64,000 nt of DNA, from positions 2,170,501 through 2,234,500 of the forward strand of contig JANPZY010000001.1 of the NCBI GenBank assembly GCA_024707325.1. Direction: 5' to 3'. Of this stretch, positions 20,788-30,444 are shown one piece after another; position 1 is the stretch's first letter; the number at the start of each line of letters is the position of its first letter. Position numbers and translations under genes: made by a program. The DNA comes from Opitutus sp. GTDB taxonomy: Bacteria; Verrucomicrobiota; Verrucomicrobiia; Opitutales; Opitutaceae. Under the pieces are notes generated by a model. The model worked only from the letters and a program-made list of their open reading frames with translations, had not been told where the DNA came from and made no database searches.

Positions 20788-21632
20788 TTCGCGTGAGCTT
20801 TCCTGCCCGGGTCTTTCTGCCGGCCGGGCGACCAGCAGGTCGTGCGGCCGCCGATTTCCTCGCGAATGAGCGGGACGCCGGTCTTTGGGCAGCGTCCGCC
20901 GTCCTCCCAGCGGTGATGGAAAAGCCACGTATCCGGAATGTGGATATTCAGGTCCGGCGGAAGCTTGCCGCCGACGCCGGCGATCTTCTCAAGTGCGGCG
21001 CGCGCGACGTGACGGCACTCGCGCCAGAGCGTTTTTGTTTCGGCGGGCGTGAGCGAACCGGCTTCGCGTCGCGGATGAATCCCGGCGCGCCAGAGGATTT
21101 CATCGGCCATCCAGTTGCCGATGCCGGGAAAACGCTCCTGCATCAGGAGCACGGCCTTCATCGGCGCGCGACGGCGGCGCGCGAGAAACGCGGCGACGGC
21201 TTTCCCGGTGAACTCGGGACCGAGAACGGGCGGAGCGATTTCAGACCACCAGGCGGGCGCGTCCTTGCCCTCGTGAAACTGCACGCGGCCGAACATGCGG
21301 TGATCGCTGAACACGAGCGCGTGTTTCGTGGTGACGACCACGAGGTGGTCGTGCTTCGCCGGGGCGTGTGTTGGAGGTTGCACCGTCAGCTCACCTGTCA
21401 TGCCCAAGTGGATACCGAGCCACAGATCTCCACTGAAACGAAACAGCATCTGTTTCGCGGCGGCTTCGGAGTTGAGAAGGCGTTTGCCCGGTAGGGCGTG
21501 CGCGATCACGTCAGGATCGCTGCCGCGGAAGATCTTCGCCTTGGCGTGAAGCGCGACGGATACGACCCGCTGACCGTGGGCGGCATCGGCCCAACGGCGG
21601 CGGAAGAATTCGACTTCAGCGAGCTCAGGCAC
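20784..21632 (-). CDS. mutM: Formamidopyrimidine-DNA glycosylase (Fpg/MutM), degenerate zinc finger
   Basis: 282 residues. The N-terminal PELAEVEFF contains the catalytic Pro and Glu of the Fpg/Nei family. The helix-two-turn-helix core is present ([24 protein letters not shown]). The C-terminal finger reads [10 protein letters not shown] ... [11 protein letters not shown], with only one Cys of each CxxC pair, so zinc is probably not bound and the site may be a zincless finger. It excises oxidised purines in base excision repair. It lies downstream of the M24 peptidase gene, by 16 bp. Confidence 0.88.
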
Positions 21633-21648
21633 GGCGAAAGCAAGGCAT

Positions 21649-22795
21649 TCAGCCGAGATACCACTCGTAACTGTGACTCGAAAGCATCTTGGGCGCGCGA
21701 TCGGTGACCTGCACGACGTCCTCGATACGACAGCCGCCGAGTCCGGGATAGTAGAGCCCGGGTTCGACGGTCACGACGGTGCCCTTTTTGAGCGCCATCG
21801 ACGAGGCGCCGCCCATCCGCGGCGCCTCGTGCACCGCGAGACCGAGTCCGTGCCCCGTGCCGTGGAAGAAACCGACGGCGCCTTTTTTCGTGTGCCACGT
21901 TCCGAAACCGACGGCTTCGAACACCTCGACCACGCGGCGATGCACGCTGCGCCCATCCACACCCGCACGGATCTTCTCGAATGCGGCGAGCTGCGCTTCG
22001 CGCACGGTGGCGACAAGCGCGTGCTGATCGTCGTTGGCTTTGCCGCGCAGATAGGTGCGCGTCATGTCGCCAAAATAGCCGGTCTTCGCGACGCGCGGGG
22101 AAAATATCGATGATGATGAGCTCGTGAGGACGCAGCGGGCCCGAGCCGCGCTCGTGCGGATCGCAGGCCTGATCGCCGCCCGCGACAATTGTCGTGCCAT
22201 TGGCCTGTCCGCCTTCGGCCATGATCGCCGACTCGATCGCGAACCGCAGCGATTCGGAGGTGAGCATGCGACCGTTGTGACGCAGTTCGCGACCGCGGAT
22301 CGTGGATTCGCGCAGGATCTTTTCGGCGACGGAAAATCCGACCGAGCACAGGCGGTTGCCTTCGCGAATGGCCGCGGCTTCACGCGCGGTTTTGATTTCG
22401 CGTTCGGGAAAGAGCGGACCTGACGCGAGCTCGAGCCGCAGCCCGAGTTCCTGCAGGCGCACGAAGAGCCCCGCGGGAAAATCGTCCGCCACGCGAAACG
22501 CCTTCACACGATAATGGCGCGCGAGCTCGGCAATCACCTCGGCTGCATTGATCGTGGCGCCGCGGTAGCGACGTGCAGCGCGATAACGCCATTCCTCGAG
22601 CGGTGTGACGACGTCGAACGTCCGCGCCTTCTTGATCCGCCCGAACTCGAGTGCGCTCTGCGCGGTCACACGTTTGCCTGACGGCGTGGCGAACGCGATG
22701 AACGGATCGTGCACATCGACGCGACTGAAATAGAGCTGATCGGCGCTCGTGTGCGTATCGGCGTAGAGCAGGGGAGGGAGCGGTTTCTTGGACAC
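21649..22795 (-). CDS. M24-family aminopeptidase P-like peptidase; frameshift near 22098
   Basis: About 381 residues when joined. The N-terminal half (MSKKPLPPLLYADTHTSADQ to HELIIIDIFP) and the catalytic half (RVAKTGYFGDMTRTYLRG, FHGTGHGLGLAVHEAPRM, VVTVEPGLYYPGLGG, CRIEDVVQVT) are in different frames. The pita-bread metal ligands Asp, Asp, His, Glu, Glu are all present. Removing one G from the GGGG at 22097-22100 (C4 in the coding sense) restores the frame exactly at IDIFP-RVAKTG. It removes N-terminal residues next to proline. Probably a sequencing indel rather than a dead gene. Confidence 0.85.
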
Positions 22796-24838: not shown

Positions 24839-25813
24839 GCTTTGCCTTGATTCCAATTTCGCGGAGCGGAAGCTCCGCCCGGCTGTGCTGGCACCGCCGC
24901 GATGTGCTTTGCCTTGATTCCAATTTCGCGGAGCGGAAGCTCTCGAACTCGCGCGCGCCAACGGCATGACGGCTTTGCCTTGATTCCAATTTCGCGGAGC
25001 GGAAGCTCGGTTCGGACGGCGTCACCTCCGGCGTCAATGCTTTGCCTTGATTCCAATTTCGCGGAGCGGAAGCTCAACGCGATCCAGACGGTGCACCAGT
25101 TCTGTGCTTTGCCTTGATTCCAATTTCGCGGAGCGGAAGCTCCCGCGCCGGGTCGAACGTCATGAAGTCCGGGCTTTGCCTTGATTCCAATTTCGCGGAG
25201 CGGAAGCTCCGGGCGCGTCAAACACGACGCCGGCCCCGGCTTTGCCTTGATTCCAATTTCGCGGAGCGGAAGCTCGCCCTGCCACTGGAGTGTCGAGATC
25301 GCCTCGCTTTGCCTTGATTCCAATTTCGCGGAGCGGAAGCTCGGTGCCGAAGCCACCGAGGAAAGCGACGTTGCTTTGCCTTGATTCCAATTTCGCGGAG
25401 CGGAAGCTCTGCTCGACGGCGTGCAGGAGGAGGAGGTCAGCTTTGCCTTGATTCCAATTTCGCGGAGCGGAAGCTCGCGCGTTGCGATCAATTTCCCGTC
25501 TTGGTAGCTTTGCCTTGATTCCAATTTCGCGGAGCGGAAGCTCCCATCGAGGGCCACTCGCCGTCGGTGTCGCAGCTTTGCCTTGATTCCAATTTCGCGG
25601 AGCGGAAGCTCCTTGGGCTGCAGCTCGGAGCGGTGGCGCTCTGCTTTGCCTTGATTCCAATTTCGCGGAGCGGAAGCTCCTTCGACGCCGGGAGGTGATG
25701 CAGCGGTTAGCTTTGCCTTGATTCCAATTTCGCGGAGCGGAAGCTCTGCGCGCTGGTATCACGGCGAAGAGCCACAGCTTTGCCTTGATTCCAATTTCGC
25801 GGAGCGGAAGCTC
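24839..25813 (+). CRISPR. Type II-C CRISPR array, 15 repeats of 37 bp, 14 spacers
   Basis: Repeats start at 24839, 24906, 24972, 25039, 25106, 25173, 25239, 25306, 25373, 25440, 25507, 25575, 25643, 25710 and 25777, and all appear identical. Each begins GCTTTGCCTTGATTCC, has AATTTCGCGGAGC in the middle and ends GGAAGCTC. Spacers are 29-31 bp and GC-rich. The plus strand is given because the tracrRNA at 30321-30444 is complementary to the 5' half of the plus-strand repeat, so crRNAs should be read opposite to cas genes. The terminal repeat continues into a hairpin (25794-25825). Spacer targets were not identified. Confidence 0.97.
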
Positions 25814-25850: not shown

Positions 25851-26186
25851 TTACCAGAGCTGGATTTGCTCTGGCATTTTCTCGGGCGAAACCTCTTTGG
25901 CCGGAGAGCCGTAGATCACAAAAGCGCGTTCCCATTGGGCTCGAGTCACGAAAAAGGCGCGGACTTTGCCTTCCGGTGGGATGCCTTTCCGAACACGGTC
26001 GAGGTGCGTTTCCTGTCGCGCGAAACTCACGCATGGCCGCGCATAGACGCTGAACTGGATCATCTGAAATCCATCATCGATGAGAAACTCTCGAAAGGCT
26101 GTGGCAGCTTTCCGTTGAGCCCGGGTGACGACCGGCAGATCGAATGCGACGACAAGCCAGCCCATTTTCAGCTTTTCGACATCCAT
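25851..26186 (-). CDS. cas2: CRISPR-associated endoribonuclease/integration protein Cas2
   Basis: 111 residues. It opens with the ferredoxin-like first strand GWLVVAFDLPVVTRAQRKAA, whose Asp (FDLP) is the conserved Cas2 residue, and continues with FREFLIDDGFQMIQFSVYARP and GKVRAFFVTRAQWERA, a typical type II Cas2. With Cas1 it captures and integrates spacers. The start overlaps the cas1 3' end by 19 bp. It ends 37 bp before the array. Confidence 0.95.
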   Translation of the reverse strand: MDVEKLKMGWLVVAFDLPVVTRAQRKAATAFREFLIDDGFQMIQFSVYARPCVSFARQETHLDRVRKGIPPEGKVRAFFVTRAQWERAFVIYGSPAKEVSPEKMPEQIQLW

Positions 26187-27070
26187 GGCCGATAGTGTCG
26201 AGAGGTGCTGGCGATCACCGCCTGGCGGAAGCCGCGGACCACACCTTCAATACAGCCGCGAATATCGAGTTCGAGGCCCAGGTAGTCGACGCGCTCCAGC
26301 GAAAAGCCCGTCACCCATTTTCGGAACTCTCCGGTGACAGCGAAAGCCTCGGCCTGAGGACGGTCCTTCACCCATTGATAAACACGCCAATCGACGCAGG
26401 GGCGAAATGGCTCCATCAAATCGTAGGCCAACGGCGCACTACGTTCGCGGATGGCGTGCGAGATGCCGACCATCGGATCGAGTCCCACCGCATAGAGCTT
26501 TTGCAGGACGGTCGAGAGAAGGACCGCGTAGCCGTAGTTAAGGAGATCGTTTAGACCGCGGAGTTTTCGTCCGCGCGAGAAGCCTTCGATGCGTAGTCCT
26601 TCGGTGATGACTTCCCAAAACAGTTTGGCGCACCCACCTTCCTTGCGGGCGCTACGCGCCCGAGCGGCATCGGCGAGCCTGTGAGTGGTTTGAGCGTCTG
26701 GTAGAATCCGCCGGGCGACTTGAAGCTGGTTCGCACACTTTGCGTCAATGGTCTTCTCCCAGAGGCGTGAGCGCACGTGTTCCGGAAGCGTGAGATGTCT
26801 GCGAGTGAGGAGCGTGTCGGCGGAGCGACATGCAGGAAGCAGCAACGAGACGGGTTGAAACCGCTCGCAGATAACGAGAGCTACGCCGTGTTTGGCGGCT
26901 TCGAGAAACAAGTGGCTGTGAATGCGCGCGGAGAAGCTGGTGACGATGATTGAGGCAACGTCTTCCAGCGGCACGCGCTTCGAGCCTTGGTCCGTGCTAC
27001 AGACCAGTTGCCCGTCCCGACATGTCAGATCGGCTCGAGGAGCATCGATACTGACGATGTGGTAGGACAT
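26168..27070 (-). CDS. cas1: CRISPR integrase Cas1 (type II)
   Basis: 300 residues with the Cas1 active-site residues E144 (ARKEGG), H205 (GISHAIRE) and D217 (AYDLMEPFRP). The N-terminal strand domain (MSYHIVSIDAPRADLTCRDG) is followed by the helical catalytic domain. It integrates spacers as a complex with Cas2. It lies 10 bp after the cas9 stop. No csn2 or cas4 is nearby, which supports subtype II-C. Confidence 0.96.
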   Translation of the reverse strand: MSYHIVSIDAPRADLTCRDGQLVCSTDQGSKRVPLEDVASIIVTSFSARIHSHLFLEAAKHGVALVICERFQPVSLLLPACRSADTLLTRRHLTLPEHVRSRLWEKTIDAKCANQLQVARRILPDAQTTHRLADAARARSARKEGGCAKLFWEVITEGLRIEGFSRGRKLRGLNDLLNYGYAVLLSTVLQKLYAVGLDPMVGISHAIRERSAPLAYDLMEPFRPCVDWRVYQWVKDRPQAEAFAVTGEFRKWVTGFSLERVDYLGLELDIRGCIEGVVRGFRQAVIASTSRHYRPWMSKS

Positions 27071-27080
27071 CGGAGAGTTC

Positions 27081-30000
27081 TCAGTCTTGCGGGAACGCGC
27101 GACCGGTTAAGTCGGTGTCCAGACGGAGCGCTCCGTCTCGAAGTAGACTCTTCAGGAGGACGTTGATCCAACTTGGTCTCACCGTCTCGACTGTGCCTAG
27201 GTCCAAGGCCATGCCGCTTGCATTGTTCTTGATCGAGAAGATCCGCCACAGTCCGGCACGTGGCCCGGCTGGGATCTTAAGCACCTGCCCATTTCGCCAA
27301 ATCAGCGGAGGCTTCCCTCCATTGCGCTGTTTGAGCGCTCCCAATTGCGCCCAAACTCGCGCGAAGGGGATGATGACCAAGCGCTCGGCTGGAGGGATTT
27401 CGGGGTTATCGAGAATAGCTACGCCGAAGTTGTCAGCGATCACTCGAACGCCCCGAACTTTGCTCAGTTTGCCGTCCGTGTTCAGGCCGATGACTTTGGT
27501 TTCGAGTTCGGTCGTGCAGTTGGTGACGATTTTACCGTCGGCGTTTTTCTTTCGCTGCCGCAGGGTGACTCGTCCGTTCTCGCGGCTGATCACACCACGG
27601 GTGTTTTCTTCAACTCGGATGCCGCTCATGTCGGCCGGCACATGTTGAACAACGCGCCGTTCGGCCAGCCGGTCTCGGATCTGTTGTTTCAAGTCGCCCG
27701 GAAGGTCGCGGAGGCGAAAACCGCCATTTGCGTCGAAGTCTCCCAAGTTGAGTTTTTCCAACGCGCCGCGTTGTTCACTGTTCAAGCGTCGTTCCAACAG
27801 CAGACGCCAAACGTCGCCTTGGTTGGGGATCAACGCGGCGGCCAGCCCCAGCACGCACGCATCGAGGGCATGGTGAAGATGAGTGATTTGTCGGATCTCG
27901 GTTTTGTTTTTTACGACGATCCTTTCCTTGCCCTCGGTATCGACGGACTTCTCCAGCACGGCGGGAGCTGCTTCGGCGAGGCAGCCAAGAACGTCCCAAG
28001 CCGCGCGAACGCGAGCAGTGACAGGTCCAGGCAGAGCGACGAAGGTAGGGGGCGAAGGCAGGTGGGCAAACGGAGCTCGCAGCACTTGTTGCCCGAGGCG
28101 CGTGAGTTGGGAGGTCTGGGTTAGCTGGCCGGGAGTGAAGCCGCCGGCTTTTTTCTTCGTAGCGTTCGAGCAGCAGCTTTTCGACGCGGCGCTTCTTCCG
28201 TCGCTGATCATCCAAGTGCCCTCGTTTATCGAGCGCTTCAACGTCCTGTTTATAGCGGCTGAGCTGCTTGATTTGCAGATTGGGCAATCCGGGAACGGTC
28301 TTCGTCTCCTCGGCGCGAACGAACTCCCATGCGGTGCGTTTGCCCTTCCATTTGTTAATCTCCGAAAACGTGACCACCAGCGAATCGAGTGAGTCCGACG
28401 GGCGCTGCGAGCGGGGAATGATGTGATCCAAATCTACTCTACGAGTGATAAGGTCGATCGGCTCAAAGTCGTGGCCAGTATAGGGGCAGCGCCAACCAAG
28501 GTCGTCGGCGATGCGGGCTTTGCGGATCAACGAGGCGTTGATCTTGGTTCCCTGCGGTAATTCAGCCAGCAAGCGTTTCGAAACCTGCGCATGATTCCGG
28601 AGGCGCTCATTCATCTCCTTGGCGATCTCTTGAGCGGTCAGTCCAGCCATCGCTCTGAGATCGCGATTCACTTCGAGGGTGATGCGTTGCACGCACGAGG
28701 CATCCCCACCTGCATAATCTGCAATCAAATGCTGAAAGAGGCGTCCGAGGATTTGAAGACGATGTCGGACGAGGTGGTTATTGGTTTGCTGATCAAGTGG
28801 ACGGTTATCCCGAGCCCGGCGGAGCTCGGGCGTTTCAAACAAACACCCACCTTCGCTGCGGGGATGCACTGTGCCGCTCATCACTTGTTGATAAGCGGAG
28901 ACTAGCAGTGGGCGCGCATAGGGAGCGCGACCGCCGAGAGGTGGGACAGTAAAGGAAGTCGTCAGGATTTGTGCGACGGTAGGAGGGGGTGTCGGAGTTT
29001 TTTTCCGGGAGGGTTTCTCCGGCACAGAACAGAGTTGAGCGACCGCGGTATTGAACGCGTTGATGTCGGCACCTGTTCGAATGGCTTCGTCGCGCAATTT
29101 GCCGAGCGTCTGGGATCGACCTCGACGCCAGCGGTTGAGGGCGTGGCGTTGAACGATCTCGGGGAGATGGGGCCACACAGCGGCGATCCATCGATTGGTC
29201 GAAACCAGTCTGAGCGCAGGATCGAGCACGAGGTTTTCCGCCGCTGTCGCGTCCATGAACATCTGGTCGAGATTGTCGCGGACAGACCCAGTTAACGCGC
29301 GCACGGTTTTCCTAAACTCGCCAGGCGTGAAGTAGCCCTCTGTGGTCGCCTGCTGCGTCAATGCGCTCCGTTCCTCTTTGCTTAACGGACGCAGCGGTTG
29401 GTCGCTTGCCGAGGCCACATTGATATTAGCCAGCAGCATTGCCCAACGGAAACGAAGAAACTCGGGGCAGTCCTTGAGCGGGAGTTTCTCACCGGAAATG
29501 GGGCACCGACCGATGATGCGGTTGTGGTAGCGAGTCGCTAGGCGCCCGAAAAGTAGACCGCCTCTATAACGTCGAGGGAGGCGAATGTCGGGACAGACAA
29601 TCGCGTGAGCGTCCTCCAGCAGCGCGCGAACGAACGCGTCGTCCACGCCTGGTAGTTTGCCTGTGTGATGTGCGAGAACTTGCCGGACTTCATCCACCAC
29701 CACTGCGCGATCGAAAGCGGCGTCTTTCGCTTTGTAGCTTTCCGTGGTCCCGCTGCGTGGAGCGAGAGGATCCTGCCCCAACCATGCACAAATCGTCTCG
29801 GCCATGGTGTTTTTCCCAAACCGCTCCATGGCTTCACGAGCGTGAGCGCGTTTCTCCTTGTTCTCCGCCTCATCTTCATCTGCTCCGATCGCTTCGTAAC
29901 CGCGGTTATGAGCATACCAACGGAGAACATCCCACAGTTCACTCCACGTCAGCGCGTGCTCCCCGTTGCTTGCGAGCACGCGTGCTGCGAGCAACCACGG

Positions 30001-30303
30001 CGTGGCGCTGCCTCCGTTGGCGCGGTGTTTACGGGCGAGCTCTTCGGAGGAGAACGCTCCCAAGTGCACAAGCAACTTTTCGAGTCGCGCGATGCGTTGG
30101 CGAGTGGCGCGCACATGCCTCCGCTGTTGTCGATGCACGCGCCGGGACTTCGCCAAGGCACTGTCCTTTTCAAAGATGACAGAGCCGCATCCGAGGACGG
30201 AGGGAGCGGAGTTTTGAGCAGCTGACAAAACAGCCCAACCGATCGAGCTGTGACCGACGTCGAAGGCGAGTTCGAGAGGAGATGAGTTCGTGCTTGCAAC
30301 CAT
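27081..30303 (-). CDS. cas9: Cas9 (type II-C), about 1073 aa, split by a +1 indel in an A6 run
   Basis: RNA-guided DNA endonuclease. Counting from the ATG at 30303: RuvC-I D15 (LAFDVGHSSIGWA); an Arg-rich bridge helix (about 53-80, RRVHRQQRRHVRATRQR); a recognition lobe; RuvC-II E544 (TLEVNRDL); HNH D626/H627 (DLDHIIPRS) and N650; RuvC-III HH810-811 and D814 (LHHALDACV). The C-terminal PAM-reading part follows. The frame breaks after about residue 718 at the T6 run 28149-28154. Removing one base joins RYEEK to AGGFTPGQL and gives a complete protein of normal II-C length. All nuclease residues are intact. An upstream TTG (30336) was rejected as start because it runs into the tracrRNA anti-repeat. 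Confidence 0.93.
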
Positions 30304-30320
30304 GGCGCTGGACGGGGTTG

Positions 30321-30444
30321 ATGGCTGCGGAATCAAGTCAAAGTCAGTGAGCGCAGCCCGTTAAAACTAACTGCCAAGCAGTTACACCGTGGTAAACAGC
30401 GCTTCTAGAAGAAAGCCCGGGAAAATATCCCGGGTTTTTCTTTT
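30321..30444 (+). ncRNA. tracrRNA gene, divergent from cas9
   Basis: An anti-repeat GGAATCAAGTCAAAG at 30329-30343 is complementary to CTTTGCCTTGATTCC of the CRISPR repeat at 14 of 15 positions (one C-U mismatch). It is followed by a 7-bp hairpin TAACTGC-CAA-GCAGTTA (30368-30384), a CTTCTAGAAG dyad, and a terminator stem CCCGGGA/TCCCGGG with a T-run (30416-30444). The order anti-repeat, hairpins, terminator is that of a tracrRNA on the plus strand. The minus strand has no terminator and runs straight into cas9. The 5' end is estimated. Confidence 0.88.

Follow-up and report, generated by a model that had tools for sequence, protein, structure and literature searches.

The window, the 64,000-nucleotide stretch of DNA analysed here, belongs to contig C3 in an assembly of 4.04 Mb (4 contigs, 93.6% complete). 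Identification of the Cas9, Cas1 and Cas2 proteins, combined with array detection, established that cas9, cas1, cas2 and a CRISPR array adjoin one another. The array (24839–25813) consists of 15 identical 37-nt repeats, GCTTTGCCTTGATTCCAATTTCGCGGAGCGGAAGCTC, and 14 spacers of 29–31 nt, with the crRNA sense on the plus strand. The cas2 gene (25851–26186), a cas1 gene of type II / NMENI (26168–27070) and cas9 (27081–30303, start codon at 30303) all lie on the minus strand. The space between the cas genes and the array is too small for any further gene. With the order cas9-cas1-cas2, and with csn2 and cas4 absent at the locus itself, the locus is type II-C-like. Head-to-head with cas9, on the plus strand, sits a stretch of around 110 nt (30329–~30442) that we assign as the tracrRNA gene, tracrRNA being the small RNA on which Cas9 depends for making use of its guide RNAs. 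None of the spacers was matched when the array was compared with phage records, and no relative of the Cas9 was found among viral contigs. By eye, the repeat end GAAGCTC is unlike the −10-like ends (GTACAAT, GCATAAT) of some relatives' repeats, thus the array may depend on a leader promoter.

The anti-repeat, GGAATCAAGTCAAAGT, occupies 30329–30344 (+), some 26 nt upstream from the start codon of cas9, and pairs with nt 1–16 of the repeat. The duplex comprises 14 Watson–Crick pairs, a terminal G·U at nt 16 and one C·U mismatch at anti-repeat nt 10 (crRNA nt 7). Co-folding of the tracrRNA with the repeat gives a 6-bp stem, the one mismatch and a 9-bp stem. An earlier sequence-only reading had placed a 15-nt anti-repeat with one mismatch here, which is correct (16 nt when the terminal G·U is counted). 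It had also seen no pairing past nt 16 of the repeat, and both the co-folding and a comparison of repeat pairing across loci agree. Within the window the anti-repeat is the sole match outside the array at ≤3 mismatches, where shuffles give 0.48 expected for all matches. Our search of the genome itself was made both by sequence pattern and by covariance model. The model, built from 8 sequences, finds a single place in the whole 4.04-Mb assembly, the tracrRNA site (E 5.5e-20). The sequence-only reading had named a better anti-repeat at another genomic site as evidence that would count against it; such a site was looked for assembly-wide and none was found. In the whole assembly just one further match outside the array has ≤2 mismatches (C1:124565), and it was rejected; it looks coding by eye and the covariance model has no match there. 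When the full 37-nt repeat was paired with every 40-nt stretch of the window, bare duplex energy did not place the anti-repeat site among the best, because GC-rich sequence wins in a GC-rich window.

Relatives of the Cas9 were located in 27 of 373 genomes of the order and in 15 of 388 of the phylum, as well as in named genome contigs; the named records of close relatives are mostly Verrucomicrobia, including Opitutia, Spartobacteria and Akkermansia. The 16-nt anti-repeat motif is present upstream of cas9 in nearly all of them and almost always on the opposite strand, one locus (L058) having it on the cas9 strand. The first complementarity scan used 20 nt, and some true sites, that of the window included, escaped it or were given a low rank; the 16-nt form was used later. 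The covariance model adds four loci that the motif search had missed. In two of these model finds (L083 and L088) the repeats differ and the anti-repeats bear the matching changes. A covariance search in relatives had been proposed with the sequence-only reading, and by this means the same RNA is recovered next to cas9 in about 40 of them. A set of 33 loci having an array as well as an anti-repeat shows pairing over 15 of 16 positions (30 loci) or 14 of 16 (3 loci). The anti-repeat follows its own repeat across this set, none of 20000 permutations reaching the observed total. Both the mismatch at anti-repeat nt 10, opposite crRNA nt 7, and the G·U at nt 16 are found in 33/33 loci. One further locus (L064) was excluded from this count; its repeat is changed at nt 7 and the opposing base is absent from the anti-repeat, so that the position is still unpaired. 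The duplex had been regarded as unusually short, but 16 nt is the norm of the family.

Downstream of the anti-repeat, fold and covariation together define three helices on the plus strand. P1 pairs GAGCGC (30349–30354) with GCGCTT (30399–30404), and P2 pairs GCCCG (30356–30360) with CGTGGT (30388–30393), leaving one bulged T. P3 (30368–30384), a 7-bp hairpin TAACTGC-CAA-GCAGTTA, forms the tip of the nested stem. The single-strand fold from anti-repeat to terminator has an energy of −36 kcal/mol (z = −3.73) and leaves the anti-repeat unpaired. The 7-bp hairpin had thus been identified correctly from the sequence, but not its serial arrangement; it is nested inside a longer stem closed by AGCGC/GCGCT. 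The strong plus-strand intrinsic terminator, which had likewise been predicted, is indeed there (30411–30444 with its U tract), its hairpin (30411–30439) having 12 pairs, 6 of them G-C, followed by the U tail. No Rfam family matches anywhere in the window at gathering score.

Across 39 distinct sequences 92.2% of the cells of the scaffold are paired and two-sided changes are seen at 16 of the 18 pairs, in an alignment that is model-fitted and so leans towards the model. None of 500 shuffles reaches this pairing and slid controls fall far lower. A MAFFT alignment of 8 sequences, which is independent of the model, has two-sided changes at 7 of 18 pairs. Covariation was scored on these two alignments because a 37-sequence MAFFT alignment misplaced P1, shifting its 3′ strand by one column. 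P1 is fully complementary in 43/43 sequences in a search that chooses the best partner for each sequence. Sequence and covariation thereby establish the anti-repeat, the scaffold, the terminator and the link to cas9 and the array. As the anti-repeat involves 16 nt only, one could imagine that a coding or intergenic stretch merely resembles the repeat by chance. Taken together, the uniqueness in window and genome, the finds of the covariance model, the anti-repeat/repeat permutations and the scaffold covariation exclude this, and we regard it as vanishingly improbable.

The cas9 frame is split by a one-base indel at a T6 run (28149–28154). What are two halves in the window's cas9 lie end to end in a single frame in a relative (L046). 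The essential gene rpoB is split in the same way in this genome. We note that a nearby peptidase M24 gene (21506–22795, minus strand) is likewise broken into two frames, again probably through an assembly indel. Since rpoB and the peptidase gene are both affected, the cas9 frameshift is probably an assembly error. Taken at face value, the split would instead make the RNA a relic, formerly functional in a system now dead, and orphan tracrRNA relics do occur in relatives. Two were found as tracrRNA hits, at L106:9356-9434 (G090) and L107:9247-9326 (G041). Neither genome has a cas9 or an array near the relic, nor any Cas9-family match above the cut-off genome-wide. Around the relic G041 is syntenic with another genome (G071), whose cas9-cas1-cas2-array block appears to have been lost from G041 by deletion. 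At the locus studied here, however, the anti-repeat, scaffold and terminator are intact, 15/15 array repeats are identical and the indels of the assembly seem to be mostly errors; a relic is therefore unlikely. The search for a gene of RNase III, the host enzyme expected to carry out processing, gave no match in this assembly (G000), and none in two others (G350 and G156), while the enzyme was found in 22 of the 25 genomes searched, the congener G135 included. As the assembly is 93.6% complete, the missing match is not evidence of true absence.

A putative promoter (30294–30322, +) can be placed ahead of the anti-repeat, with TTGCAA as −35 element inside the first cas9 codons and GTTGAT at −12 to −7 relative to the anti-repeat. 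Besides the motif, the only upstream conservation is T/TTG near −35 and T at −12, −11 and −7, and this spacing recurs in 37 loci. It is promoter-like, as expected if transcription were to begin at the anti-repeat itself. A strict sigma-70 promoter scan at the tracrRNA gave no consensus match. A start at the anti-repeat, where the promoter-like signal puts it, would account for the shortness of the duplex and the end of pairing at nt 16.

The overlap of the tracrRNA gene with the start of cas9 raises the idea of a regulatory RNA that bears an anti-repeat, such as the long-form tracrRNA by which S. pyogenes represses its cas genes (PMC11417352), in place of a tracrRNA of immunity. The conserved promoter spacing, however, leaves no 5′ extension that could be used as a guide, and the covariance model finds no other tracrRNA in the genome. 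The longest match of a spacer end to the region is 9 nt and GC-rich, which by our own estimate is about chance over 14 spacers. We consider such a role in place of immunity very unlikely. A related idea is that the tracrRNA may bind the leader of the cas9 mRNA as a built-in non-canonical crRNA and so throttle cas9. Because the tracrRNA promoter lies in the first cas9 codons, any cas9 mRNA whose 5′ end lies more than ~40 nt upstream of the start codon would carry a leader complementary to the anti-repeat at 16/16 positions. This putative leader would pair with the anti-repeat better than the real repeat does. At L058 the tracrRNA is on the cas9 strand and yet the mismatch is kept, which argues against leader pairing as the reason for the mismatch. 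Such throttling is, in our judgement, distinctly unlikely.

A published definition of the scaRNA is given in PMC6199352. In two relatives, L048 (G117) and L057 (G028), the tracrRNA is ~340 nt from cas9. Between the two lies a lone 16-nt element resembling the crRNA repeat with a terminator, reading in the cas9 direction 65–72 nt upstream of cas9. The guide ends of these elements match 9 and 10 nt of their own intergenic regions, respectively, as do 62 and 23 of 20000 guide shuffles. Both fit the published definition and are scaRNA-like candidates for the autoregulation of cas9. The guide end of a third candidate, L066, has no such match in the guide-shuffle comparison. In this locus (G202) an incomplete second copy of the 5′ end of cas9 also lies between tracrRNA and cas9.

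The identity of 30329–~30442 (+) as a tracrRNA divergent from cas9, as first read from the sequence, is supported by its position, its complementarity to the repeat, the anti-repeat/repeat covariation, the covarying scaffold and its uniqueness in the genome. Transcription and its start site, processing, the loading of Cas9 and immunity are inferred. Expression of the ~110-nt tracrRNA would be driven by a promoter that overlaps the start codon of cas9, and the RNA would begin at the anti-repeat or no more than a base or two from it. The 16-nt anti-repeat would then hybridise with the 5′ portion of every repeat carried by the plus-strand array transcript. In the resulting duplex a lower stem of 6 bp that opens with G·U and an upper stem of 9 bp would be separated by the one-by-one mismatch at crRNA nt 7. 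The single nested stem P1-P2-P3 that follows the duplex is the predicted Cas9-binding scaffold, and the terminator ends the RNA. Cas9 would load the duplex and use the spacer to locate DNA. That the gene works in this way is, on this evidence, highly probable.

A tracrRNA beside cas9 is expected, and this one, though real, is not surprising. What is new is a phylum-wide family, absent from Rfam, with an invariant mismatch and a nested scaffold. Our partial literature search found no paper joining Opitutus-type organisms, Cas9 and tracrRNA, and a prior description is possible; neither Akkermansia nor Verrucomicrobia nor Opitutus is mentioned in the main text of one Cas9 catalogue (PMC7606464). 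The tracrRNA completes a II-C-like locus in a little-studied phylum. The covariance-supported family fixes the direction of the array and the boundaries of the tracrRNA, and supplies the dual-guide structure that is needed for testing these Cas9s.

Type II tracrRNAs in general follow a plan of lower stem, bulge, upper stem, nexus or hairpins, and terminator. They share with this one an anti-repeat complementary to the repeat's 5′ portion, a duplex with an unpaired position, a structured 3′ tail, an intrinsic terminator and cas9 as neighbour. The window's duplex also begins with a G·U pair, in line with a rule reported for II-A dual guides, as cited in PMC6882279. Within the phylum, an Akkermansia sp. 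MAG (L015) and two loci of the same class as the window (L086 and L087) belong to the same covariance family and have the same mismatch and the same upstream, opposite-strand placement. They differ in their AAAAC/AAAAT ends, against AAAGC/AAAGT in the window, and P3 is shorter in L015. The II-C gene set is shared with Neisseria meningitidis, whose repeats end in a −10 box, as those of several relatives here seem to do. In the Neisseria tracrRNA two serial hairpins follow the duplex; the tail in the window, by contrast with type II tracrRNAs in general, is one nested stem and a terminator. The family differs from them, too, in the unpaired position, which in each of the 33 loci is one-by-one and lies at crRNA nt 7, a specific feature to compare with Cas9 structures.
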